Source: an uncultured Clostridia bacterium
GTDB taxonomy: Bacteria > Bacillota > Clostridia > Christensenellales > CAG-314
Direction of reading: 5' to 3'
Length of the DNA stretch: 64,000 bases
Assembly: GCA_944336125.1 (NCBI GenBank)
Contig: CALVLA010000005.1
Span: forward strand, 1-64,000
Made by a program: the position numbers and the translations under genes. Shown piece by piece: positions 32,903 to 47,212 of the stretch (its first letter is position 1; every line of letters starts with the position of its first letter). The notes beneath the pieces are model-generated. The model was not told the DNA's origin. It made no database searches and worked only from the letters and a program-made list of their open reading frames with translations.

Positions 32903-33289
32903 ATGAACATTTTTCAAATCATTGCGATAGGAATAATTTCAGCAATACTCATTACGCTTCTGAAAGAGACAAAACCCGAGCTTGCGATAATTTTGGGTGT
33001 GGCGGCAGGCGTAATAATTGTCATTTTAGTCGTGGACGAGCTGTATGAGATAGTGGCTTCGTTTTACGAAATAGTGGAAATGACGGGTATAGGCGGCGAA
33101 ATATTCACTACTGTCCTCAAAATCATAGGCATAGGGTACATAACGGAGTTTGCGGCAAACATTTGTGCGGACGCAGGGTGTAAAAGCGTGGGGGACAAAA
33201 TTTTGTTTGCGGCAAAAGTAGTAATTATGATTTTATCTTTGCCTGTGATAAAGGGATTGCTGTCGCTTATTGTGGAGATACTGCCGTGA
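32903..33289 (+). CDS. spoIIIAD: stage III sporulation protein AD
   Basis: A 128-residue protein with four hydrophobic segments; the first half mirrors SpoIIIAC (IFQIIAIGIISAILITLLKE). It has no visible Shine-Dalgarno site and begins 1 base after spoIIIAC, so it is translationally coupled. It overlaps spoIIIAE by 4 bases. Confidence 0.92.
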   Translation: MNIFQIIAIGIISAILITLLKETKPELAIILGVAAGVIIVILVVDELYEIVASFYEIVEMTGIGGEIFTTVLKIIGIGYITEFAANICADAGCKSVGDKILFAAKVVIMILSLPVIKGLLSLIVEILP

Positions 33290-34485
33290 AAAAAGTATTT
33301 TGTTCGATACTGATATTTTTAATAATCGGATTTGCGATAAGCATAATGCTTCCTCAAGGAATTTATGCGGCAGGTGAGTCAAATGATGAGATATTCGACA
33401 AGCTTGACCAAAGTGTGGACGAGCAGTTGGGAATGCTCGATTTAAGCGGCTTGGATAAAATTCTCGAAGAATTGGGATTGGAAGACGGCGGACTGTTTGA
33501 AAATAAAACCTTTACCGAAAAGGTGCAAAGCATACTTGACGGCGAGTTTGCGGAAGATACTCAGGGGTTTTTACAAGCCTTTTTAAAACTTATTTTTGAC
33601 GGAATAATAAAGCTTTTGCCTGTACTTTCGGGCATTGCCGTAGTTGCGATTTTGTGCGGAATAATAACAAACATGAAATCGGGATTTATTTCGCAGGCGA
33701 CGGGAGAAATTGTTTTTTTTGCATGCTTTGCGCTTGTGATCGTTCTGACTTTATCATGTGCGGCAGGACTGATAGAAAGCGCGGAAAATGCCGTCCGGCT
33801 GCTTAAAAAGCAAATGAACATAGCCTTTCCGATTTTGCTTACTTTGATGGCAGGAGTAGGCGGAGTTGTCAGCGCAAAAGCTTATCAGCCTGCGGTGGCA
33901 CTTTTGTCAGGCGGTGTGGCAGAAATTGTTGCCAACGTGATTTTGCCGCTGTTTGTTTTTACGCTTGTTTTTTCGGTAGTGGGAAATCTTTCAAAAAGCG
34001 TAAAACTTTCAAAATTAACTGACTTTTTTAAAAGCACTTCCGTAACTATTTTGGCTATAACTTTCACCGTGTTTACGGCATTTATGTCGGTTCAGGGGCT
34101 TACTGCGGGTGCCTTTGATTCCGTGTCAATACGAGCTGCCAAGTTTGCCACAAAAAGCTACATACCTATTTTGGGCGGCTACTTGGCAGACGGTTTCGAT
34201 TTGATTCTGGCAGGCGGTTTGCTGGTAAAAAACTCCGTGGGGGTTGCGGGGCTATTGCTTTTGGTGTCCACGATACTTTCGCCTATAATTCAGATTTTAG
34301 CCGTAACTTTCGGTTTGAAGCTCGTTGCCGCAATAGTAGAGCCTGCTACTGACGAAAGAATAACTTCGTTTTTGACTTCGGTTTCAAAAAATCTCAACAT
34401 GTTGATAGTGGCTATACTTGCTGTGGCGTTTATGTATTTTATCAGCATAATGTTACTCATTTTTACCTCAAATGCCTTCTTTTAA
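33286..34485 (+). CDS. spoIIIAE: stage III sporulation protein AE
   Basis: A 399-residue polytopic protein with an N-terminal signal-like segment (residues 1-28), a luminal stretch, and about seven to eight membrane helices from residue ~105 on. The VSAKAYQPAVALLSGGVAEI and VSTILSPIIQILAVTFGLKL segments are typical. Part of the mother-cell side of the SpoIIIA-SpoIIQ channel. Confidence 0.93.
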   Translation: MKKVFCSILIFLIIGFAISIMLPQGIYAAGESNDEIFDKLDQSVDEQLGMLDLSGLDKILEELGLEDGGLFENKTFTEKVQSILDGEFAEDTQGFLQAFLKLIFDGIIKLLPVLSGIAVVAILCGIITNMKSGFISQATGEIVFFACFALVIVLTLSCAAGLIESAENAVRLLKKQMNIAFPILLTLMAGVGGVVSAKAYQPAVALLSGGVAEIVANVILPLFVFTLVFSVVGNLSKSVKLSKLTDFFKSTSVTILAITFTVFTAFMSVQGLTAGAFDSVSIRAAKFATKSYIPILGGYLADGFDLILAGGLLVKNSVGVAGLLLLVSTILSPIIQILAVTFGLKLVAAIVEPATDERITSFLTSVSKNLNMLIVAILAVAFMYFISIMLLIFTSNAFF

Positions 34486-34496
34486 GGAAAATTACT

Positions 34497-34985
34497 ATGA
34501 ATTTAAGCAGTTGGATACTATCTATTACAGGCATAGTAGTGTTAACTTTGATTGTTGACATACTTTTGCCCGAAGGTCAGACGGCAAAATACATCAAAAG
34601 CATCTTTGCGGTGATTACGGTTTTCGTGATCGTTTCGCCGCTTCCAAAACTTTTTAGCGAAAGCATTTCCTTTGACAAGCAATTTGAAAGCGACGGTGCC
34701 GCTCATGTGGACGAAACATATTTGGAAAACCTTGGTGCTTATCGAGCGGATTATATTGAAAACCTGATTATTTCTGAACTTGAAGGCAAAAAAATTTCCG
34801 GAGTGGAAATTGAAGTTTTTTGTCAAATGAAGGATTACGTTTTTGAGATAAAAACTATTTCGGTAAATTTGGACAAAGCGTCATTTGAGGGACAAGGGAC
34901 GAATATAGATGTTAAAGAAGAAATCCTCAATGTAATTGAAAACGCATTGAATGTTTCAAACGATAAGGTTGTTTTTTATGAGTGA
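34497..34985 (+). CDS. spoIIIAF: stage III sporulation protein AF
   Basis: A 162-residue protein with two N-terminal membrane helices (about residues 5-22 and 35-52) followed by a ring-building-motif-like soluble domain. The TYLENLGAYRADYIENLIISEL and VEIEVFCQMKDY regions fit the family. It overlaps spoIIIAG by 8 bases. Confidence 0.88.
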   Translation: MNLSSWILSITGIVVLTLIVDILLPEGQTAKYIKSIFAVITVFVIVSPLPKLFSESISFDKQFESDGAAHVDETYLENLGAYRADYIENLIISELEGKKISGVEIEVFCQMKDYVFEIKTISVNLDKASFEGQGTNIDVKEEILNVIENALNVSNDKVVFYE

Positions 34986-35475
34986 AAAAAAAGGAATTTT
35001 TGCAAAGATAAAATCTGTTAAAAACATTGAAATAATTTTTGCGCTTGTTTTGGGCGCGATAGCATTATTTGTGTTTTTCGGCAACTTTTCGCTTTTTTCG
35101 ACACAAGAAAAAAATTCTTCTTACGATTTTTCGGAATATGTGAGCAGTTTGCAAAATAAAATTGAAGCAGTAATCTCGCAAATCAACGGAGCGGGAAACG
35201 TAGATATGGTAATTACGTTTTCCGGAGGAGTCGAACAGGAATACGCTTATACAACGGAAAAAGTTACTGAAAACGGTGTGGTTACCGAAACTAACACTCT
35301 TACGTTAGTGTCGGGAAAACCCGTAGTCATAAGAGACAAAATGCCACAAATTTCAGGTGTGGTGATAGTTGCCGACGGAGCGGGGAACATGTCGGTTCGA
35401 CTTGAAATCATTAAGGCTGTTCAGGCATTGTTGGATGTGCCTAACGGAAAAATAGAAGTTTTTAAGCGGTCATAA
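34978..35475 (+). CDS. spoIIIAG: stage III sporulation protein AG
   Basis: A 165-residue protein with one membrane helix (about residues 18-38) and an extracytoplasmic ring-building domain, which forms the large ring in the intermembrane space. The motif INGAGNVDMVITF and the RDKMPQISGVVIVADGAGN segment are characteristic. The ATG at 34978 overlaps the spoIIIAF end. Confidence 0.92.
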   Translation: MSEKKGIFAKIKSVKNIEIIFALVLGAIALFVFFGNFSLFSTQEKNSSYDFSEYVSSLQNKIEAVISQINGAGNVDMVITFSGGVEQEYAYTTEKVTENGVVTETNTLTLVSGKPVVIRDKMPQISGVVIVADGAGNMSVRLEIIKAVQALLDVPNGKIEVFKRS

Positions 35476-35487
35476 AGGGAGGTTTTT

Positions 35488-35964
35488 ATGTCTAAGAAGA
35501 AAAAGGTTTTGGTCTTATCAGTAATGGTGCTTGTTTTGGCTGTCGCGGTAGTGCTTAATTTTACGCTGCTCGGCAACAAAATCAATCCGGATAACGAAAG
35601 CACTTCTGCAAGTTTTTTCGCTACATACCGTGAAACCAGACAAAGCGAACGCAATCAGGAAATTTTGTATCTTGATTCGGTAATCGCAATGGAAGGCGAG
35701 GAGTTTGCCGATGCAAGACAGACTGCAGTAGAACAAAAAATGAAGCTTGTCGAAATTATGGAAAAAGAATTGCTTCTCGAAAGTCTTTTGAAAGCCAAAG
35801 GTTATGAGGACGTTGTGGTAAGCGTAGGTCTTAGCAGCGACAACATCAACGTAATAGTCAAAGCAGACGAATTGACTCGCGAAGACACCGCAAAAATTTA
35901 CGGTACAATCAAAAGCGAAACAAATGCTTCGGCAGACTTGGTAAAAATAATGTCAACAAAATAA
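35488..35964 (+). CDS. spoIIIAH: stage III sporulation protein AH
   Basis: A 158-residue protein with one N-terminal membrane helix (about residues 7-27) and a ring-building domain that pairs with forespore SpoIIQ across the gap. The SASFFATYRETRQSERNQEI linker is typical of SpoIIIAH. It has an AGGGAGG ribosome site. Last gene of the operon. Confidence 0.92.
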   Translation: MSKKKKVLVLSVMVLVLAVAVVLNFTLLGNKINPDNESTSASFFATYRETRQSERNQEILYLDSVIAMEGEEFADARQTAVEQKMKLVEIMEKELLLESLLKAKGYEDVVVSVGLSSDNINVIVKADELTREDTAKIYGTIKSETNASADLVKIMSTK

Positions 35965-36025: not shown

Positions 36026-36361
36026 ATGAAGATTGTCTCAAAATCCAGCGATTCGGGCAAGGTCATTTACAACAGCGACATTATCGCTCCGATTGTCAAA
36101 CTTTCGCTGGACAAAATCGACGGCGTCGAGCTGGCCACCTCAAAAAAAGGTTCGGTCAACAGCAGGCGTAATCAGGGAATAAGAGTCGAAAGCGTTTCCG
36201 ATTTGGTTTACATCGACGTTTACGTGAAAGTTCGTTTTTCCGAAAGCGTCAGGGAAGTTGCTTACAAGGTTCAGCAAATCATCAAAAACGAATTGGAAAC
36301 AGCCACTAATTTCCACGTTAAGGATGTTAACGTACACGTTGTCGACGTTGAATTTGCCTGA
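36026..36361 (+). CDS. Asp23/Gls24 family protein (YqhY-type)
   Basis: A 111-residue cytosolic protein of the alkaline shock protein family (VIYNSDIIAPIVKLSLDKIDG, then VYIDVYVKVRFSESV). It lies directly upstream of nusB, like YqhY in Bacillus, where it affects growth and lipid synthesis through acetyl-CoA carboxylase. In OLE-containing bacteria this gene heads the same cluster as the OLE RNA. Confidence 0.92.
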   Translation: MKIVSKSSDSGKVIYNSDIIAPIVKLSLDKIDGVELATSKKGSVNSRRNQGIRVESVSDLVYIDVYVKVRFSESVREVAYKVQQIIKNELETATNFHVKDVNVHVVDVEFA

Positions 36362-36368
36362 GCTTTCT

Positions 36369-36394
36369 AAACCCTTTGGTTTTCCAAAGGGTTT
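36369..36394 (+). terminator. terminator-like hairpin between asp23 and nusB
   Basis: AAACCCTTTGG pairs perfectly with CCAAAGGGTTT around a TTTT loop. The T-run is short (TTTATT), so it may be partial and allow read-through into nusB, which has no clear promoter of its own. Confidence 0.75.
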
Positions 36395-36421
36395 ATTCTG
36401 CATTTAGCTGTTAAGGTTTTT

Positions 36422-36823
36422 ATGAGAAAATACGCAAGAGAAGTTACTTTCAGTCTTACATTTGAATATCTGTTTTCGAAAAACGTCAATTCGCTTGACC
36501 TTGATATGTTTGATTCCAAAAAACTTACGCAAGACGATTTCGAATATATCAAATCAACTTACGGCGGTATTATCGAAAATTTTGACCAATTGATGGCAAC
36601 GGTCGGCAGTCTGTCAAAGGGGTTTAAGCTTGACAGGATTTTTAAAGTGGACCTTGCCATTCTTATGACTGCGGTTTACGAGCTGTCTCATTCTGACATT
36701 CCCGTTGAAGTTTGTATTAACGAAGCGGTTGAACTCGCAAAAAGATTTTCTACCGAAAAAAGCGTCGGCTTCGTAAACGGTATTTTGGCTGAATATGTTA
36801 AAAATTACAAAAAGGAAGGGTGA
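36422..36823 (+). CDS. nusB: transcription antitermination factor NusB
   Basis: A 133-residue helical RNA-binding factor for rRNA transcription. The REVTFSLTFEYLFSK start and the C-terminal DIPVEVCINEAVELAKRFS motif are diagnostic. It has an AAGG site before the ATG. Confidence 0.94.
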   Translation: MRKYAREVTFSLTFEYLFSKNVNSLDLDMFDSKKLTQDDFEYIKSTYGGIIENFDQLMATVGSLSKGFKLDRIFKVDLAILMTAVYELSHSDIPVEVCINEAVELAKRFSTEKSVGFVNGILAEYVKNYKKEG

Positions 36824-36828
36824 TTAAT

Positions 36829-37683
36829 ATGGGAAACGTTCTTAACGGAACTGAACTGTCAAAACAAATGCGCGATATGGTAGCGGAAATGTGCTGCCAG
36901 TTTGAATTGAAATACGGTCATCCCGTCGGGCTTGCTATCATTCAGGTAGGCGACAATCCTTCTGCCACATCATACGTAAAAAACAATCTCAGGCTTTGCA
37001 AGGAAGTCGGTATTGCCGCAAATCTTTACAAAATGTCGGCAAAATCAACTCAGGAAGAAATTATCGCTCAAATCGAGCAGCTTAACGACGACGACAAGGT
37101 CAGCGGTATTTTGTTACAGCTTCCGTTGCCTGCCGGTCTTGACATTCAGCTTATTTCAAGCAAAATCAAGCCTACAAAAGACGTTGACGGCATAAATCCG
37201 GTAAGCGCCGGCAATTTGTTTTCGGGTTTTCCTGCTTTTGCGCCTTGCACTCCGTCAGGTGTGTTGGAACTTATCAAATCGACTCACACAGACATTTTGG
37301 GCAAACACGCAGTTATCGTCGGAGCAAGTAACATCGTAGGCAAACCTTTGGCAATGTTGCTTTTGCGTGAAGAAGCAACCGTAACCGTATGCAACGACAA
37401 AACAAAAAATCTCGCTGAAATTTGCAAACAGGCAGATATATTGATTTCGGCATGCGGACAAGCCGAAATGATTGACAGCAGCTATGTCAAAGAGGGCGCT
37501 ATCGTCATTGACGTAGGCATCAACTTTAAAGATAAAAAACTTTGCGGCGACGTTAAATACGACGACGTGTTGCCTGTTGCTAGTTACATTACTCCTGTTC
37601 CGGGCGGCGTCGGACCGATGACAGTCACTATGCTTATGTTCAATACGTATGCGGCTGCCGTCGAAAGTAAAGAATCTAAATAA
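36829..37683 (+). CDS. folD: methylenetetrahydrofolate dehydrogenase/cyclohydrolase
   Basis: Bifunctional enzyme of one-carbon metabolism. The LAIIQVGDNPSATSYVKNNL and GILLQLPLPAGLD motifs, DGINPVSAGNL, and the nucleotide site VIVGASNIVGKPLAMLLL are intact. The ATG at 36829, 8 nt after AAGGAAGGG, gives 284 residues. An alternative GTG at 36820 is less likely because it overlaps the ribosome site. Confidence 0.96.
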   Translation: MGNVLNGTELSKQMRDMVAEMCCQFELKYGHPVGLAIIQVGDNPSATSYVKNNLRLCKEVGIAANLYKMSAKSTQEEIIAQIEQLNDDDKVSGILLQLPLPAGLDIQLISSKIKPTKDVDGINPVSAGNLFSGFPAFAPCTPSGVLELIKSTHTDILGKHAVIVGASNIVGKPLAMLLLREEATVTVCNDKTKNLAEICKQADILISACGQAEMIDSSYVKEGAIVIDVGINFKDKKLCGDVKYDDVLPVASYITPVPGGVGPMTVTMLMFNTYAAAVESKESK

Positions 37684-37685
37684 TC

Positions 37686-38855
37686 ATGACAATTACTGTT
37701 ACTCAATTAGGCAACTTTCTGAAAGCTATGGTGGACAGCGAAACTTTGCTTTACGACTTAAACGTCGAAGGCGAAGTTTCAAACCTAAGGCTTGGCAGTG
37801 AAGTTGCTTTTTTCGTATTAAAAGATGATAATGCGCAGATAAACTGCTTTTGGTATTCACCCAAAATTAATTTTTTCGACGGAGATAAAGTCGTAGTAAG
37901 CGGCAGACCGAATTTTTACGTCAAAGGCGGAAACCTTTCCTTTGCGGTGTCAAACGTAAAAAGGAAGGACAAAAAGGGGGATTCTTTTTTGGCGTTTTTG
38001 CAGCTCAAGGAAAAATTTGAAAAAGAAGGTCTTTTTGACTTGTCGCGTAAAAAACCTATTGTCAAAAACTGCAAAAAACTTGGGGTAGTCACGTCTTCCG
38101 AAGGTGCGGTCATGCATGACATACATAAAGTATGTAATCGCCGAGACCCTAGTGTAGATATAATTGTTTATGACTGTCGTGTGCAGGGAGCCGAAAGCGA
38201 AAAAACTATTATTGATGGCATCAAATATTTTCAAAATACCGATGTTGACAATATCATCGTTGCCAGAGGCGGCGGAAGCGCGGAGGACTTATCGTCATTT
38301 AACGGCGAAAAACTCGTGTACGCTATTGCCGACAGCAAAAAACCTGTTATTTCTGCAGTCGGACATGAAACGGATTTTACTCTTTGCGATTTTGTTGCCG
38401 ACGCCAGAGCAGCTACTCCGTCTGTCGCCGCAGAAATTTGCACAAGGGACACTGTTGCTTTTAGAGCGGAGCTGACGCAAAGACTAAAAAAATGCGCCGG
38501 AATTTTGAGTTCGCGAATTTCGGAAAACTATTCAAGACTGAAACTTTACGACGAAAAGTTAAAAATGGAGTCAACAAGTCTTTGCGACAGAAAACAAGCG
38601 GAAATTAAAAATCTCTTTTCCTTTTGCCAAGTTGCGCTTGAAAAAAAGTTTTTAAATTCCGAAGCTCAAGTTAAGCTTTTGCTGGCAAGACTTGACGGAG
38701 CAAATCCTTTAAATATACTGAAAAAAGGTTATTCCGTTGCGGAGAAGGACGGTAAAAAAGTCTTTTCGGCAAAGCAGCTGAAAAAATCGGATAAAGTGGA
38801 AGTTGTGTTTTTCGACGGCAGGGCAAAAGTAACCGTTGATGAAATGGAAAATTAA
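37686..38855 (+). CDS. xseA: exodeoxyribonuclease VII large subunit
   Basis: Single-strand DNA exonuclease with an N-terminal OB-fold (VEGEVSNLRLGSEVAFFVLK) and a catalytic domain containing TSSEGAVMHDI, VARGGGSAEDLSSFN, and GHETDFTLCDFVADARAATP. Its 389 residues are at the short end for XseA, with a reduced coiled-coil stalk. It begins 2 bases after folD and is followed by xseB. Confidence 0.95.
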   Translation: MTITVTQLGNFLKAMVDSETLLYDLNVEGEVSNLRLGSEVAFFVLKDDNAQINCFWYSPKINFFDGDKVVVSGRPNFYVKGGNLSFAVSNVKRKDKKGDSFLAFLQLKEKFEKEGLFDLSRKKPIVKNCKKLGVVTSSEGAVMHDIHKVCNRRDPSVDIIVYDCRVQGAESEKTIIDGIKYFQNTDVDNIIVARGGGSAEDLSSFNGEKLVYAIADSKKPVISAVGHETDFTLCDFVADARAATPSVAAEICTRDTVAFRAELTQRLKKCAGILSSRISENYSRLKLYDEKLKMESTSLCDRKQAEIKNLFSFCQVALEKKFLNSEAQVKLLLARLDGANPLNILKKGYSVAEKDGKKVFSAKQLKKSDKVEVVFFDGRAKVTVDEMEN

Positions 38856-38863
38856 GGTGAATT

Positions 38864-39049
38864 ATGAATTTTGAAAAAAACGTTGAAAAAATCGAGGAAA
38901 TTTTAAAAAAACTTGAAGACGGTTCGGTAAGTCTTGAGGAAAGTTTAAAATTGTTTGAAGACGGCGTAAAACTGACTAAAGAATGTCTTGACAGACTTGA
39001 CGAATACAAAGGTAAATTTGAGGTTATCAAAAACAAAATCGGTGAATGA
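38864..39049 (+). CDS. xseB: exodeoxyribonuclease VII small subunit
   Basis: A 61-residue helical-hairpin protein that binds XseA in several copies. NFEKNVEKIEEILKKLEDGS and VSLEESLKLFEDGVKLTK are the family pattern. It has an AAGGTG site before the ATG and ends 1 base before ispA. Confidence 0.94.
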   Translation: MNFEKNVEKIEEILKKLEDGSVSLEESLKLFEDGVKLTKECLDRLDEYKGKFEVIKNKIGE

Positions 39050-39050
39050 A

Positions 39051-39875
39051 ATGAAAAAATTTTTGCAGACGCTTGAATGCGATACGAAAATCATCAACGA
39101 ATATCTCGAAAATTATTGCGGCTCGCTGCCAAAAAATACTGTAGGCGAGGCAGTTAGATACAGCCTTATGTCGGGCGGAAAAAGACTGCGCCCGTCAATT
39201 GTGCTTGAAACGGCAAAAGTTTTGGGCAAAATCGACGACAACGTAATGCGTTTGGCAGCGGCAATAGAAATGATTCATACTTATTCGCTGATACATGACG
39301 ATTTGCCTTGCATGGACGACGACGATTTTCGAAGAGGACAGCCTTCATGTCACAAAAAGTTCGGAGAGGACAATGCTGTTCTTGCGGGGGACGCTTTGCT
39401 TAACTGCGCTGCAGAATTGCTGCTTGAAGGAAAGTATTCTTTAAATTATATAAATGCCGTAAGATTTGTTTTTTCATGCTCGGGAATTTTTGGGATGATA
39501 GGCGGACAGGCAATTGATGTTTCCAAAACGAAAAATCTTGATTATGAAACGCTGGATTTTCTTACCGAAAACAAAACTTCAAAACTTATTATGGCTTGCG
39601 TAGGTGCGGTTTGTTTGTACTTTGACGTTTCTGCCTTTAAGTTTGATTGTTTTATTTCTTTTGCCGAAAAGTTCGGAAAAGCTTTTCAGATTGCAGACGA
39701 CATGCTTGACGAAGAAACAGACGAAAACTTAAATTACGTTTCGTTGTTGGGTATTGACGATGCGGCGGACATTTTAAAACAGCTTTCGGATGAAGCAAAA
39801 AAATTAATCGAGACTTACGACTCGGATGGATTTTTCAAAAGTTTGTGTGATTTTAATCTTTTGAGAAAAATTTGA
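39051..39875 (+). CDS. ispA: polyprenyl synthetase (farnesyl diphosphate synthase type), shortened C-terminal loop
   Basis: Trans-prenyltransferase that condenses IPP with allylic diphosphates. The first aspartate-rich motif DDLPCMDDDDFRRG and the second, FQIADDMLDEE, are intact, as is GGKRLRPSIV. Directly after the second motif, the usual loop with the conserved GK..G.D....K.TY pattern is missing: DDMLDEETDENL runs straight to NYVSLLG. The protein is 274 residues, about 15-20 shorter than typical IspA. The start at 39051 overlaps nothing; it lies 1 base after xseB. Position before the OLE RNA is standard in OLE-bearing genomes. Confidence 0.92.
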   Translation: MKKFLQTLECDTKIINEYLENYCGSLPKNTVGEAVRYSLMSGGKRLRPSIVLETAKVLGKIDDNVMRLAAAIEMIHTYSLIHDDLPCMDDDDFRRGQPSCHKKFGEDNAVLAGDALLNCAAELLLEGKYSLNYINAVRFVFSCSGIFGMIGGQAIDVSKTKNLDYETLDFLTENKTSKLIMACVGAVCLYFDVSAFKFDCFISFAEKFGKAFQIADDMLDEETDENLNYVSLLGIDDAADILKQLSDEAKKLIETYDSDGFFKSLCDFNLLRKI

Positions 39876-39881
39876 TTTTTC

Positions 39882-39920
39882 GGCGAATATTATATAAAGG
39901 TATTCGCCTTGCTTCTTTTA
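39882..39920 (+). terminator. probable terminator after ispA
   Basis: GGCGAATA (39882-39889) and TATTCGCC (39901-39908) form an 8-bp stem with an 11-nt loop, followed by a T-rich stretch (TTGCTTCTTTTA). The large loop and interrupted T-run make it moderate. Confidence 0.65.
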
Positions 39921-39921
39921 T

Positions 39922-39950
39922 TTGATATTTTTTTACAGTTATGATAAAAT
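39922..39950 (+). promoter_or_regulatory. sigma-A-type promoter of OLE RNA
   Basis: TTGATA at 39922-39927 and TAAAAT at 39945-39950 with a 17-bp spacer. Transcription would start near 39957, three bases before the first base of the RNA's closing helix (39960). Confidence 0.82.
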
Positions 39951-39956
39951 AATATT

Positions 39957-40542
39957 ACTGGTGGTGCAGTATCCTAGTCAAACTTGTTTTTATCCAGGAC
40001 GGGATTAAACAATCGTCAAAGGGCATATCGATGAAGTTTCTTGTGTTGGCCTTTGTTGCCCAAACAGGGGCTGATGCTGGAAGTTAAGGACTGTGGGTAA
40101 GCTGTAATGGCATACGGCCGATTCCCATTTTCCGTGGAGACTTATCTCGGTTGTCAATTTTTGACTACTGAATAAGGTTGAACCTGCTATGCGGTATTAA
40201 ATTTTAATGCTGTGTACAGAGTAGCCTGCCTTGAGTGACAGCTTCGGGATTCCCGAACACGTCCGCCGCTTTGTTGGCCGACAACGTGCGGATGATCGCG
40301 GGATGAAATTTGCGTTGCAAAAGAGGCTAAATGAAAACGAGCTTGTTAAGGAAATCTTCTAGGCTGTAATCGGTAATTCGGGGATTATAGTACGGACTTA
40401 GTGGCGATTCAGTTTTGCGAACGGTGACGTCGCAATGCGAAATTTAAAAGGAAACTGCTTCTTCGGCGACGGGAAGTATTTTGCAGGGAAATCCTACTGA
40501 ACCTATGCCGTAAGGTTTACCTGATTTATCACCACCTTTTTT
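39957..40542 (+). ncRNA. ole: OLE RNA (ornate, large, extremophilic RNA)
   Basis: About 580 nt without a plausible gene on either strand, less A-rich than the flanks and rich in hairpins. The two ends pair exactly: GGTGGTG (39960-39966) with CACCACC (40530-40536). Inner hairpins include TTCGGG-att-CCCGAA (40243-40257) and CAAAGG (40017-40022) with CCTTTG (40050-40055). It lies between ispA and a gene for a four-helix membrane protein and dxs, downstream of asp23-nusB-folD-xseAB, which is the known locus of OLE RNA and its protein OapA; the usual length is about 600 nt. OLE RNA forms a membrane-bound ribonucleoprotein that helps cells withstand cold, alcohol and magnesium stress in Halalkalibacterium (Bacillus) halodurans; its biochemical task is unknown. 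Identification rests on context, size and structure, not on a covariance-model search. Confidence 0.9.
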
Positions 40543-40558
40543 ATTTTTGAGGTAAATT

Positions 40559-41140
40559 TTGAAAAATAAATGTGAACCGTCTTCCTCCAAGCAAAAGAAG
40601 GAGGATGACAAGCAGCTCAAAAAGCCGCAGAAAAGGAATACTTGGTTTGTCAAGGCTCTTTTTTTGACGCTTATTTTGTCCTTTACATTCAGCCTTATAT
40701 CCGAGCTTGTAATAGGCAACGCGCCTTTGGCTGTAGCATATCTGCTTATAGTGTTGCTTGTTGTGATCGCGGTAGTTACCGATATGATAGGTACTGCTGC
40801 GGCAGCTTGTGATATCGAGCCGTTTTTGGCAATGTCGGCAAGGAAAGTCAAAGGGTCAAAAATGGCGGTAAGGCTTGCAAAAAATGCCGAAAAAGTTTCT
40901 TCGGTTTGTGCCGACATTATAGGCGACATTTGCGGAATAGTCAGCGGTGCCTGCGGTTCTGCGATCGTAGTCAAGCAGTTTGTTGACGGAACGTCCATTT
41001 TTGTAAGCGTTCTTTTCAGTGCCGTTATCGCCGCTATTACCGTGTCGGGCAAGGCTTTCGGAAAAACTTACGCTATGACGAATTCAAACAAAATCATCTT
41101 TGCCGTAGCGAGAGTTTTGTCTGTGTTTAAAAAGAATTGA
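40559..41140 (+). CDS. oapA: OLE-associated protein OapA (four-helix membrane protein)
   Basis: A 193-residue protein with a basic, lysine-rich N-terminus (residues 2-27) and four membrane helices (about 32-48, 56-78, 113-137, 145-168). Between helices 2 and 3 lies a conserved-looking segment TDMIGTAAAACDIEPFLAMS and then a basic stretch (SARKVKGSKMAVRLAKNAEK). Size, topology and position directly downstream of the RNA match OapA, which anchors OLE RNA to the membrane and affects magnesium balance. The start is a TTG at 40559, 5 nt after GAGGT; no in-frame ATG fits. It is followed 1 base later by dxs. OapB and OapC homologues are not seen in the window. Confidence 0.9.
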   Translation: MKNKCEPSSSKQKKEDDKQLKKPQKRNTWFVKALFLTLILSFTFSLISELVIGNAPLAVAYLLIVLLVVIAVVTDMIGTAAAACDIEPFLAMSARKVKGSKMAVRLAKNAEKVSSVCADIIGDICGIVSGACGSAIVVKQFVDGTSIFVSVLFSAVIAAITVSGKAFGKTYAMTNSNKIIFAVARVLSVFKKN

Positions 41141-41141
41141 T

Positions 41142-42947
41142 ATGTATCTTGAAAAAATAAATTCGCCAAACGATTTAAAAAAACTCAATATTTCGGAGTT
41201 AGAGGTGCTGTGCCGTGAAATCAGACAATATCTTATAGATACTGTCAAAGAAACAGGCGGGCACCTTGCTTCAAATTTGGGAGCGGTTGAAATGACCGTT
41301 GCTTTGCATTATGTTTTTGACGAAAAGGACAAAATCGTTTGGGATGTGGGACACCAAAGTTACGTGCATAAAATTCTGACGGGACGAAAGGACAAACTGG
41401 CTTCATTAAGGCAAAAAGACGGTTTGAGCGGTTTCCCTAAGCCGTCTGAAAGTGAATACGACTCTTTTTTGACGGGGCACGCCAGCACTTCGATTTCGGC
41501 AGGGTTGGGACTGTGCGCGGCAAGAGACTTGCAAGGTGAAAGCTACAATGTCATTTCGGTAATAGGTGACGGGGCTTTTACCGGCGGTCTTGTTTACGAA
41601 GCTTTCAATAACATAGCCGACAAAAAAATACTGGTTGTCTTAAACGACAACGATATGTCAATTTCTCGCAACGTGGGAAAAGTTTCGCTCACACTTTCAA
41701 AATTGCGTTTGGGAAAAAACTACAATAGGTTTAAGTCGGGAATGACAAAATTTTTCGGCTCGATTCCTCTTGTTGGCAAATTTTTGATTAATTTTTTCAC
41801 AGGCGTCAAAAACTTTTTTAAAGGTCTTTTCGGGGCAAATACTTATTTCAGCAACTTCGGAATCAAATATATAGGACCATTTGACGGCAACGATATTAAA
41901 AAGACGGTTAAAATTCTTACGGCGGTTAAAAAGGATTTGAACAGACCCGTACTTTTGCATTTGGTAACAAAAAAAGGCAAGGGGATGACCGAGGCTGAAG
42001 AAAATCCTGAAAAATTCCACGGAATATCTCCGAAAAATCACGCCGCAAAAGAGTATTCTTATTCCGAAACCGCAGGAAAAACTATTTGCGAACTTGCCGA
42101 AAAAAATGACAAGATAGCAGCGGTCTGTGCGGCTATGCCAAGCGGAACAGGCTTGGAAGAATTTAAAAACAAGTTTGCCGACAGATTTTTCGATGTGGGA
42201 ATTGCCGAGGAGCATGCCGTTACTTTTGCCGCAGCCATGGCAAAAGGAGGCATGAAACCATTTGTTTGCGTTTACTCAACCTTTTTGCAAAGGGGATTTG
42301 ATCAGATTTTGCACGACGTTTGCGCAGATGACCTTCCGGTAACCTTTTGTCTTGACAGAGCCGGGTTTGTAGGCAGTGACGGCGAAACTCATCAGGGGCT
42401 TTATGATTTGAGCTACCTTTCTCTAATGCCAAATATGTCTGTTCTTTGCCCAAAAGACACAGAGGAATTGAAAAACATGATTGTTTGGGCGGCACAACAA
42501 AATCATCCGCTTGCGATACGATATCCTAAGGAAACAGATGTTCTGTTTGACAGTCACAGTGAAATTGAATTGGGACGATGGGAAAAACTTGCCGACAACA
42601 AAAGCGATGTGACTTTGTTTGCGGTTGGCGGAAATATGATTGCTCTTGCTCAAAAAGTCGCACAAAAAACAAATGCAAATGTTGTCAATGCCAGATTTGT
42701 CAAACCTATTGACGAAAACATGTTACTTGAGCTTTCTTCCGACAGGCTTTGGGTTGTTTTGGAAGAAAATCAGCAAAACGGTGGTCTTGCTTCGCAAATT
42801 TCTCTTTTTGCTTCGGAGAACAAACTTAAACCTGAAATTCGTTCCGTTTCTGTAAAAGACAAATTTGTTCCTCAGGCAACAATCGAGGAGCAAATGGAAA
42901 ACAGCGGCTTTGATGAAAACAACATCTTAAAAATTATCAACGATTAA
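41142..42947 (+). CDS. dxs: 1-deoxy-D-xylulose-5-phosphate synthase
   Basis: First enzyme of the MEP pathway; thiamine-diphosphate-dependent. GHASTSISAGLGLCAARDL, the TPP motif IGDGAFTGGLVYEAFNN, and YSTFLQRGFDQILHDVC are all family marks. The length of 601 residues is slightly short but complete. It is 1 base downstream of oapA, so it would be made from transcripts passing through OLE RNA and oapA. A terminator follows. Confidence 0.96.
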   Translation: MYLEKINSPNDLKKLNISELEVLCREIRQYLIDTVKETGGHLASNLGAVEMTVALHYVFDEKDKIVWDVGHQSYVHKILTGRKDKLASLRQKDGLSGFPKPSESEYDSFLTGHASTSISAGLGLCAARDLQGESYNVISVIGDGAFTGGLVYEAFNNIADKKILVVLNDNDMSISRNVGKVSLTLSKLRLGKNYNRFKSGMTKFFGSIPLVGKFLINFFTGVKNFFKGLFGANTYFSNFGIKYIGPFDGNDIKKTVKILTAVKKDLNRPVLLHLVTKKGKGMTEAEENPEKFHGISPKNHAAKEYSYSETAGKTICELAEKNDKIAAVCAAMPSGTGLEEFKNKFADRFFDVGIAEEHAVTFAAAMAKGGMKPFVCVYSTFLQRGFDQILHDVCADDLPVTFCLDRAGFVGSDGETHQGLYDLSYLSLMPNMSVLCPKDTEELKNMIVWAAQQNHPLAIRYPKETDVLFDSHSEIELGRWEKLADNKSDVTLFAVGGNMIALAQKVAQKTNANVVNARFVKPIDENMLLELSSDRLWVVLEENQQNGGLASQISLFASENKLKPEIRSVSVKDKFVPQATIEEQMENSGFDENNILKIIND

Positions 42948-43876: not shown

Positions 43877-44329
43877 ATGTCGCGTAGCACAAGACAATCG
43901 AAAATTTTGGATATCATAGCAAAAAAGGACATCGAAACGCAGGAAGAGCTTGTAGGTGAACTTTTGAATTGCGGCATAATCGTTACTCAGGCGACAATAT
44001 CCCGCGATATCAAAGAGCTGGGGCTTGTCAAAACACTTGCCTCCAACAACAAATACAAATATACTTCGGTAAAATCGCGTGATTTGAAAGTCTCTGCGAA
44101 ATTGCTCAATGTTTTTAAGGAAGCGGTAATTACAATCGCATCTGCCAACAACATGGTTATAGTTAAAACCTTGAGCGGCAGTGCAAACGCGGTCGGAATG
44201 GTTATTGACCAAATGCATTTTCCCGAAATGTTCGGAAGCATTGCGGGAGACGACACTTTGCTTGTGATTGCAAAATCAAATGAAGGAGCGGCAGACCTTC
44301 ACAAAAAGCTGTTGGAGATTACAGAGTAA
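43877..44329 (+). CDS. argR: arginine repressor ArgR/AhrC
   Basis: A 150-residue regulator with an N-terminal winged helix (TQEELVGELLNCGIIVTQATISRDIKELGLVK) and a C-terminal hexamerisation and arginine-binding domain containing the GSANAVGMVIDQM and GSIAGDDTLLVI motifs. Strong AAAGGAG ribosome site just after nadK. It probably controls arginine genes and perhaps its own promoter. Confidence 0.94.
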   Translation: MSRSTRQSKILDIIAKKDIETQEELVGELLNCGIIVTQATISRDIKELGLVKTLASNNKYKYTSVKSRDLKVSAKLLNVFKEAVITIASANNMVIVKTLSGSANAVGMVIDQMHFPEMFGSIAGDDTLLVIAKSNEGAADLHKKLLEITE

Positions 44330-46019: not shown

Positions 46020-46041
46020 GAGCGGATTTGCCGCTCTTTTT
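46018..46041 (+). terminator. intrinsic terminator after recN
   Basis: AAGAGCGG and CCGCTCTT form an 8-bp stem with a 5-nt loop, followed by TTT. The stem begins in the recN stop codon. Confidence 0.85.
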
Positions 46042-46070
46042 GCATATTAAAACAAAAATTAATCAAACTA
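46042..46070 (+). promoter_or_regulatory. possible forespore (sigma-G/F-type) promoter of spoIVB
   Basis: GCATA at 46042-46046 as -35, 17-bp spacer, CAAACTA at 46064-46070 as -10, close to the sigma-G pattern (GHATR, 18 bp, CATnHTA). In B. subtilis spoIVB is transcribed by sigma-F and sigma-G. Confidence 0.5.
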
Positions 46071-46090
46071 AACCTTGTTGTGAGGTGACG

Positions 46091-47212
46091 ATGAAAAGGT
46101 TTAATTTTGTTTTGATACTTTGCATTTTGCTTTTTATTTTTGCCGTTTTGCCGACAAATGTGTTTGCGCTTGAAGCAACCGACGAAGCGACGGTAAACGA
46201 AAACTCAAAGCAAGTGGCTGAAGAAGCGTCGGCTGATTTGCTGGATGACATCAAAGGACTTTTCGTAAAGCAAAATCAAAAGCAAAATTTAGAAGAAGTT
46301 GTTTTGGGTGGCGTGCCTATCGGCATTAGTCTTGACAACGAAGGTATAGAGGTAATAGGTTTTTCGGAAATAATTACACAAGACGGACTCAAAAGCCCTG
46401 CGGCGGACGCCGGACTTGAAGTTTGCGACAGAATTATAAAAATCAACGGCGAAAACGTTTCAAAAGTAAAGAGGCTCAACGAAATCGCAAACAGCCAAAA
46501 TGGAAAAAGCGTTGTCGTTGATTACCTGAGAGACGGTAAACAAAAGAGAACTCAAATTTTGCCGCAAAAAGATATTCTTACCGAGGAATATAAGCTCGGG
46601 CTTTGGGCAAAGGACGTAAGCAACGGTATCGGGACGCTTACATTTGTCAGGGGAAACGATTACTTCGGTTGCTTGGGACATCCGATTGCCGATAAAAACG
46701 GTGAAATTATCAAAATAACCGGCGGGAAAGTTTACGATTGTCTTATCTTAGGAGTGAACAAAGGCGTAAAGGGAGACGCCGGTGAACTTAAGGGAGCTTT
46801 TTCCGGGAAAACACCTATAGGAACAATTTATAAAAACAACAAATTCGGTGTTTACGGCAAATTTGAAACAATGCCTGAAAAACTAAACTCCTCACAAAAA
46901 GTGGAAGTGGCAAATGTTTGTGAAGTTAAACCTGGCAAGGCGCAAATATATTCGACTGTTGAAGGAAACGAGCCAAAGTTTTATGACATCGAAATAGTAA
47001 AGGTAACAAATCAAAGCCAAAAAGACGACAAGGGTATGGTCGTAAGAGTTGTTGACAAAACTTTGCTTGAAAAAACAGGCGGAATAGTGCAGGGAATGAG
47101 CGGAAGTCCGATATTGCAAAACGGCAAACTTGTAGGCGCTGTTACGCACGTGTTTGTAAACGATCCTACGCAAGGCTTCGGAATGTTTGCGCAGTGGATG
47201 CTTACCGAATAA
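46091..47212 (+). CDS. spoIVB: SpoIVB serine peptidase (S55)
   Basis: Secreted forespore protease that triggers sigma-K activation in the mother cell. It has an N-terminal signal or anchor (residues 1-25), a PDZ domain (about 75-160), and the S55 peptidase domain with His197 in CLGHPI and the serine motif GMSGSPILQNG (S337/S339). The length is 373 residues. The frame is open upstream, but the ATG at 46091 follows GAGGTGA and precedes a signal peptide. recN-spoIVB is a conserved pair in spore formers. Confidence 0.93.
   Translation: MKRFNFVLILCILLFIFAVLPTNVFALEATDEATVNENSKQVAEEASADLLDDIKGLFVKQNQKQNLEEVVLGGVPIGISLDNEGIEVIGFSEIITQDGLKSPAADAGLEVCDRIIKINGENVSKVKRLNEIANSQNGKSVVVDYLRDGKQKRTQILPQKDILTEEYKLGLWAKDVSNGIGTLTFVRGNDYFGCLGHPIADKNGEIIKITGGKVYDCLILGVNKGVKGDAGELKGAFSGKTPIGTIYKNNKFGVYGKFETMPEKLNSSQKVEVANVCEVKPGKAQIYSTVEGNEPKFYDIEIVKVTNQSQKDDKGMVVRVVDKTLLEKTGGIVQGMSGSPILQNGKLVGAVTHVFVNDPTQGFGMFAQWMLTE

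Follow-up and report, generated by a model that had tools for sequence, protein, structure and literature searches.

What is encoded in the gap between ispA and the gene of a four-helix membrane protein, is it complete, and could it be transcribed apart from its neighbours? These questions are raised by a 64,000-nucleotide stretch of DNA from an uncultured Clostridia bacterium (hereafter the window). A preliminary description of its sequence had read the gap as an OLE RNA gene with its membrane partner OapA, driven by a dedicated promoter. To our knowledge, few conserved bacterial RNAs of unsolved biochemical task are larger than OLE. The locus is laid out as follows.

36026 to 39049, + strand: asp23, nusB, folD, xseA and xseB (Pfam)
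39048 to 39875, + strand: ispA, a polyprenyl synthase gene (Pfam PF00348, 7.5e-45), immediately 5' of the OLE gap
39945 to 40551, + strand: OLE RNA, matched by cmscan over the whole 616-position Rfam model (462.2 bits, E 1.8e-132)
40559 to 41140, + strand: oapA, encoding 193 aa from a TTG start preceded by GAGGT; four long helices and a DxxxD motif at residues 119-123
41142 to 42947, + strand: dxs, one base after oapA (Pfam PF13292, 5e-108)

The search with the OLE model that the preliminary description had proposed as its check has now been run. A single full-length, high-scoring match to RF01071 (model 1-616, untruncated; gathering score 50 bits) was obtained on the + strand; no other Rfam family scored above threshold in the window, and this is the only OLE copy in the whole genome (G000). 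The interval between ispA and the next gene (39876-40558) is non-coding as described, the list of open reading frames holding no plausible protein gene there. Its length had been given as about 580 nt, but 683 bases separate the ispA stop (39875) from the oapA start (40559), and it is the RNA itself that measures about 585-590 nt. Across the 33 loci of the window's own family, the OLE RNA spans 600-615 nt. The window copy falls into the full-length class: its 462 bits exceed the published cut-off of 390 bits, set with a model related to, but different from, the Rfam one used here (PMC11332333), and the Rfam alignment retains arms P7-P9 and P13. None of the large arms is lost; the single element reduced or missing is a small hairpin (model about 424-436).

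The gene order asp23-nusB-folD-xseA-xseB-ispA-OLE-oapA-dxs was confirmed by Pfam as that of the usual OLE locus. Within the family, OLE has oapA directly behind it at every one of the 33 loci and ispA in front of it at 32, the remaining locus beginning at a contig start. Further out, spoIIIA-like genes lie upstream (32903-35964) and argR-like and spoIVB-like genes downstream (43877-44329 and 46028-47212), all named by reading only; ArgR has been put forward as a candidate OLE partner (PMC12265935).

We then considered the structure of the RNA, for which the following elements matter.

39960 to 39966, + strand: 5' strand of the closing helix P1, GGTGGTG
40530 to 40536, + strand: 3' strand of P1, CACCACC; 6 of its 7 pairs are invariant in the 33 loci
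40088 to 40133, + strand: P6 region, with its conserved G-C pairs retained in the 33-locus alignment
40415 to 40485, + strand: three hairpin helices of the 3' half (40415-40435, 40436-40485 and 40457-40477), with 16 compensatory pairs in the first two
40537 to 40548, + strand: T-rich tract TTTTTTATTTTT, directly after P1; the aligned family loci also have a T-rich stretch after CACCACC

The ends of the RNA pair perfectly, exactly as had been noticed; P1 hardly varies, so that covariation neither supports nor contradicts this helix. The strand also folds more stably than expected, at -190.6 kcal/mol compared to -168.3 kcal/mol in dinucleotide shuffles (z -3.4; 0 of 100 shuffles). For the covariation test, the Rfam structure of the window sequence was transferred onto an alignment of the 33 same-family OLE loci. 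Pairing was observed in 89.8% of 5102 cells, compared to 81.4% in shuffles and 42-48% with slid partners; these pair counts use a structure derived from the Rfam alignment of the window sequence itself, whereas the covariation comes from the other 32 loci. Seventy-two pairs were changed on both sides (48.7 +/- 3.0 in shuffles), and the covariation score was 0.304, compared to 0.145 in shuffles and at most 0.10 in the slid control. Two helices of the 3' half, in alignment columns 502-530 with partners up to 572, showed compensatory changes at all 16 pairs. The OLE secondary structure is conserved, and covariation backs it.

These 3'-half helices (40415-40485) fall within the part of the RNA that OapB is reported to bind, P12.2/P13 (PMC12265935), the stem names not being mapped one to one. 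P6 is the reported bS21 site, and its left shoulder is part of the OapC k-turn (PMC12054373, PMC9723947). The 3' strand of P6 (40124-40133) reads CCCAUUUUCC in the window and thus lacks the CCUCCU anti-Shine-Dalgarno mimic known from H. halodurans; the G-C pairs of P6 are kept, and bS21 is encoded in the genome. The T-rich tract is likely to lie close to the 3' end of the RNA.

The preliminary description would have failed had the downstream protein not aligned with OapA. This protein is OapA by its position, by a DxxxD motif invariant in 31 relatives, and by a CNNM-like sequence and fold lacking CBS domains. Its best Pfam match is CNNM (1.5e-5, slightly below the cut-off), a family matched by 24 of the 31 OapA members, and a likewise weak CNNM match has been published for OapA (PMC11332333). 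The motif reads DIIGD (119-123), with D119, G122 and D123 invariant in the 31 proteins. OapA is further marked by the loss of a proline conserved in CNNM proteins; the profile alignment made here does not extend over that stretch. A structure model built from these 31 sequences (pLDDT 78.7) shows four long helices, in agreement with the earlier reading. No sequence match of OapA to a solved structure was found; the best PDB folds for the model are the CNNM/CorB and CNNM/CorC Mg2+ transporters (7m1t, TM 0.56, probability 1.00, E 0.01). In MpfA, the family mark is a tandem CBS following CNNM. The 193-aa protein stops after the membrane domain and has no CBS match in Pfam; since it lacks both CBS and CorC_HlyC domains, it is not of the MpfA type. 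Taken together, we hold with high confidence that the gap contains a complete, full-length OLE RNA gene beside its partner gene oapA, a statement on the identity of RNA and partner and not on their role.

Is the rest of the particle encoded as well? The genome is 1.24 Mb in size and 94.6% complete. An OapB homologue is found at secY-adk-map-oapB-infA (neighbours named by reading): this eL14/KOW protein matches the OapB structure 7k9b with an E-value of 1.4e-10, ribosomal eL14 coming next at only 0.01. The OapB survey took a typical OapB-like sequence, checked against the PDB OapB, as its query; for the window's genome, the assignment is based on the protein that it encodes itself. An L7Ae-type protein encoded between rpoC and rpsL (Pfam L7Ae, 7.2e-08; B. 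subtilis YbxF, E only 0.02) is a candidate YbxF/OapC. With bS21 also encoded, every OLE partner looked for is thus present, OapC as a candidate. Genomes of the window's family typically carry full-length OLE, an OapB-type gene and bS21.

In small-genome gut clades (TANB77, RF39), by contrast, OLE is reported to be shrunken and OapB and OapC to be mostly lost (PMC11332333). A genome of this size and completeness could accordingly be suspected to belong to a genome-reduced gut bacterium that lacks OapB and OapC and carries a structurally reduced OLE (published variant 1 or 2). The sequence contradicts this, and we consider it very improbable: the score lies above the full-length cut of the related but different published model, the major arms are all present bar the one small hairpin, and the genome encodes an OapB homologue as well as an L7Ae-type protein. 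As to the habitat, called unproven in the preliminary description, the nearest named relatives are Clostridia MAGs from animal guts (sheep colon, roe deer cecum).

Several observations were made among relatives. Whether or not OLE is present, OapB homologues are widespread in the order (234 of 247 genomes). In most mixed families the OapB match is poorer in OLE-less members (mean 3.7 log10 E units, compared to 1.5 for the NusB control), family f15 shows the opposite trend, and in the OLE-less genus g59 of f14 no OapB homologue was detected. This suggests that OapB constraint is relaxed after OLE loss, with effects of relatedness and of the query partly remaining. At one locus (L086:1647-2477, genome G066), OLE is 831 nt long and three of its peripheral arms, at P7-, P9- and P13-like positions, are greatly expanded. 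L089 (G086) and further f25 genomes retain OLE at a genome size of 0.8-1.3 Mb and a reported completeness of 98-100%; in most of the f25 members listed it scores about 345-375 bits, which is under the published full-length cut. MAG contigs broken inside or beside OLE give false truncated matches (G025:C17, G026:C36 and C5, G070:C17). The truncated matches in G025 and G026 lie at contig ends and were therefore rejected as variants and assigned to assembly breaks; a 789-nt OLE in G194 was discarded because it contains a run of N.

MpfA is reported to anticorrelate with OLE (PMC11332333). We recounted this in 247 genomes of the order that are at least 85% complete, taking CNNM at E <= 1e-20 as MpfA: 28 genomes have both, 86 only OLE, 114 only MpfA and 19 neither (Fisher 3e-23, uncorrected for relatedness). 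The window's genome is among the 28. Its MpfA-like protein (C8:2095-2613; L060:1057-2055, - strand) has 332 aa with CNNM and CBS and no CorC_HlyC match; the gene's composition fits the genome (tetranucleotide correlation 0.968), and three genus-mates lack it. As such a CNNM-CBS protein is also encoded, OLE/OapA cannot be the genome's only device of that type. This co-occurrence might be taken to mean that the window's OLE is a decayed or non-functional relic. We judge this extremely unlikely, as the invariant segments and compensatory changes are retained in the RNA and oapA is intact with all its invariant residues.

We next asked where the RNA might start, given these features.

39922 to 39950, + strand: candidate sigma-A promoter TTGATA-17-TAAAAT with a conserved extended -10 (TGA before the -10)
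39957, + strand: predicted transcription start, about 7 bases past the -10 (+/- 2 bases), from promoter geometry
39882 to 39908, + strand: non-conserved hairpin resembling a weak terminator, in the ispA-OLE gap

The promoter was found where it had been described, and the TG before the -10 makes it an extended -10 promoter; its position places the predicted start near 39957. Conservation was assessed for the -10 only, as TGnTAnnnT with at least 5 of 6 matches and no more than 60 bases upstream of P1. Such an element was detected at 28 of the 33 family loci (85%), compared to 3.6% of shuffles. It ends 9-13 bases before P1 in the window's genus and lies 37-46 bases upstream in many other genera. 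The earlier claim of a dedicated promoter is backed by this conservation, and on sequence grounds we consider such a promoter likely. Many relatives (L004, L009, L010, L011, L023, L028, L040 and others) have a short 5' hairpin of varying sequence (e.g. TTCGGACGTTTACGTCCGAA) between the predicted start and P1, with a score of 5.9 compared to 2.5 in shuffles; it is absent in the window's genus.

The probable terminator that had been placed between ispA and OLE did not hold up as well: its T run is broken, the scan gave 4 sites where 2.8 +/- 1.7 are expected, and it is not conserved in the genus, close relatives having only 49-64 bases between ispA and OLE and lacking that GC-rich hairpin. Transcription of OLE apart from the housekeeping operon is plausible. 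For H. halodurans, the OLE cluster has been reported to yield a single polycistronic transcript (PMC12265935), so most of the RNA need not come from a dedicated promoter. OLE RNA could come mainly from a long asp23-dxs operon transcript and be freed by processing, the promoter-like sequence being minor or unused. The H. halodurans precedent, the co-directional and tightly packed flanking genes and the weak, non-conserved terminator all speak for this; yet a near-consensus extended -10 occurs near the RNA 5' end at most family loci though the surrounding sequence differs, and we regard an operon origin as possible but on the improbable side.

A bolder joint proposition, to which we give somewhat less than even confidence, is that OLE is an autonomous gene in this small-genome gut family. 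A conserved extended -10 would start the RNA beside or within about 45 bases of P1, the T-rich tract would end it, and the RNA would be independent of the housekeeping operon; the complete particle would be kept despite genome reduction and, in the window's species, alongside an MpfA-like transporter.

What might the particle do? Work on H. halodurans has tied the OLE complex to stress from cold, ethanol, Mg2+ and carbon source, and models based on cryo-EM show an OLE RNA dimer across the membrane (PMC12265935); phenotypes and partners are described in PMC12265935, PMC11332333, PMC9723947 and PMC12054373. The published mechanism, an RNA-OapA device whose task overlaps with that of MpfA, is the best supported, owing to the H. 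halodurans work and the OLE/MpfA anticorrelation. In this view, OLE RNA would fold into the OLE structure closed by P1, its transcription probably beginning near 39957 from an extended -10 promoter of its own. Together with OapA (CNNM-like, without CBS), OapB, the YbxF/OapC-like protein and bS21, it would form the OLE ribonucleoprotein at the membrane, and the RNA may do the work of the regulatory CBS/CorC parts that MpfA-type Mg2+ transporters have in the cytoplasm. We infer that OLE is transcribed, assembled, membrane-located and functional in this bacterium, most likely acting, like other OLE complexes, in Mg2+ and membrane stress as a membrane particle of RNA and OapA. That its role is the one known elsewhere, a stress-responsive device tied to Mg2+ homeostasis with RNA replacing the CBS/CorC parts, is argued by analogy and seems to us evenly poised.

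That a genome of 1.24 Mb retains full-length OLE and the partners searched for, OapC as a candidate, qualifies the view that OLE shrinks and OapB and OapC are shed as genomes become reduced. Same-order relatives with or without OLE, OapB and MpfA offer natural comparisons for OLE function. It is well supported that the locus adds one more copy, in an uncultured bacterium with a small genome, to a known RNA-protein system and does not open a new class; what is new is confined to the conserved promoter and to how complete the partner set is for so small a genome.

Compared with the RF01071 copies of H. halodurans, C. acetobutylicum and C. botulinum, the window copy shares the full-model match, the closing helix, the arms, the gene neighbourhood and oapA directly 3'. 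It differs in lacking the small hairpin and, relative to H. halodurans, the CCUCCU mimic on the P6 strand, and in having a promoter predicted right at the RNA 5' end. The window OapA has the position, four long helices, lysine-rich segment, invariant DxxxD and CNNM-like fold without CBS domains of known OapA; no difference is defining, and the gene begins at TTG. With the CNNM Mg2+ transporters MpfA, CorB and CorC it shares the membrane-domain fold, but it lacks their CBS and CorC_HlyC domains and has DxxxD, and its profile similarity to the genome's own MpfA-like protein is weak.
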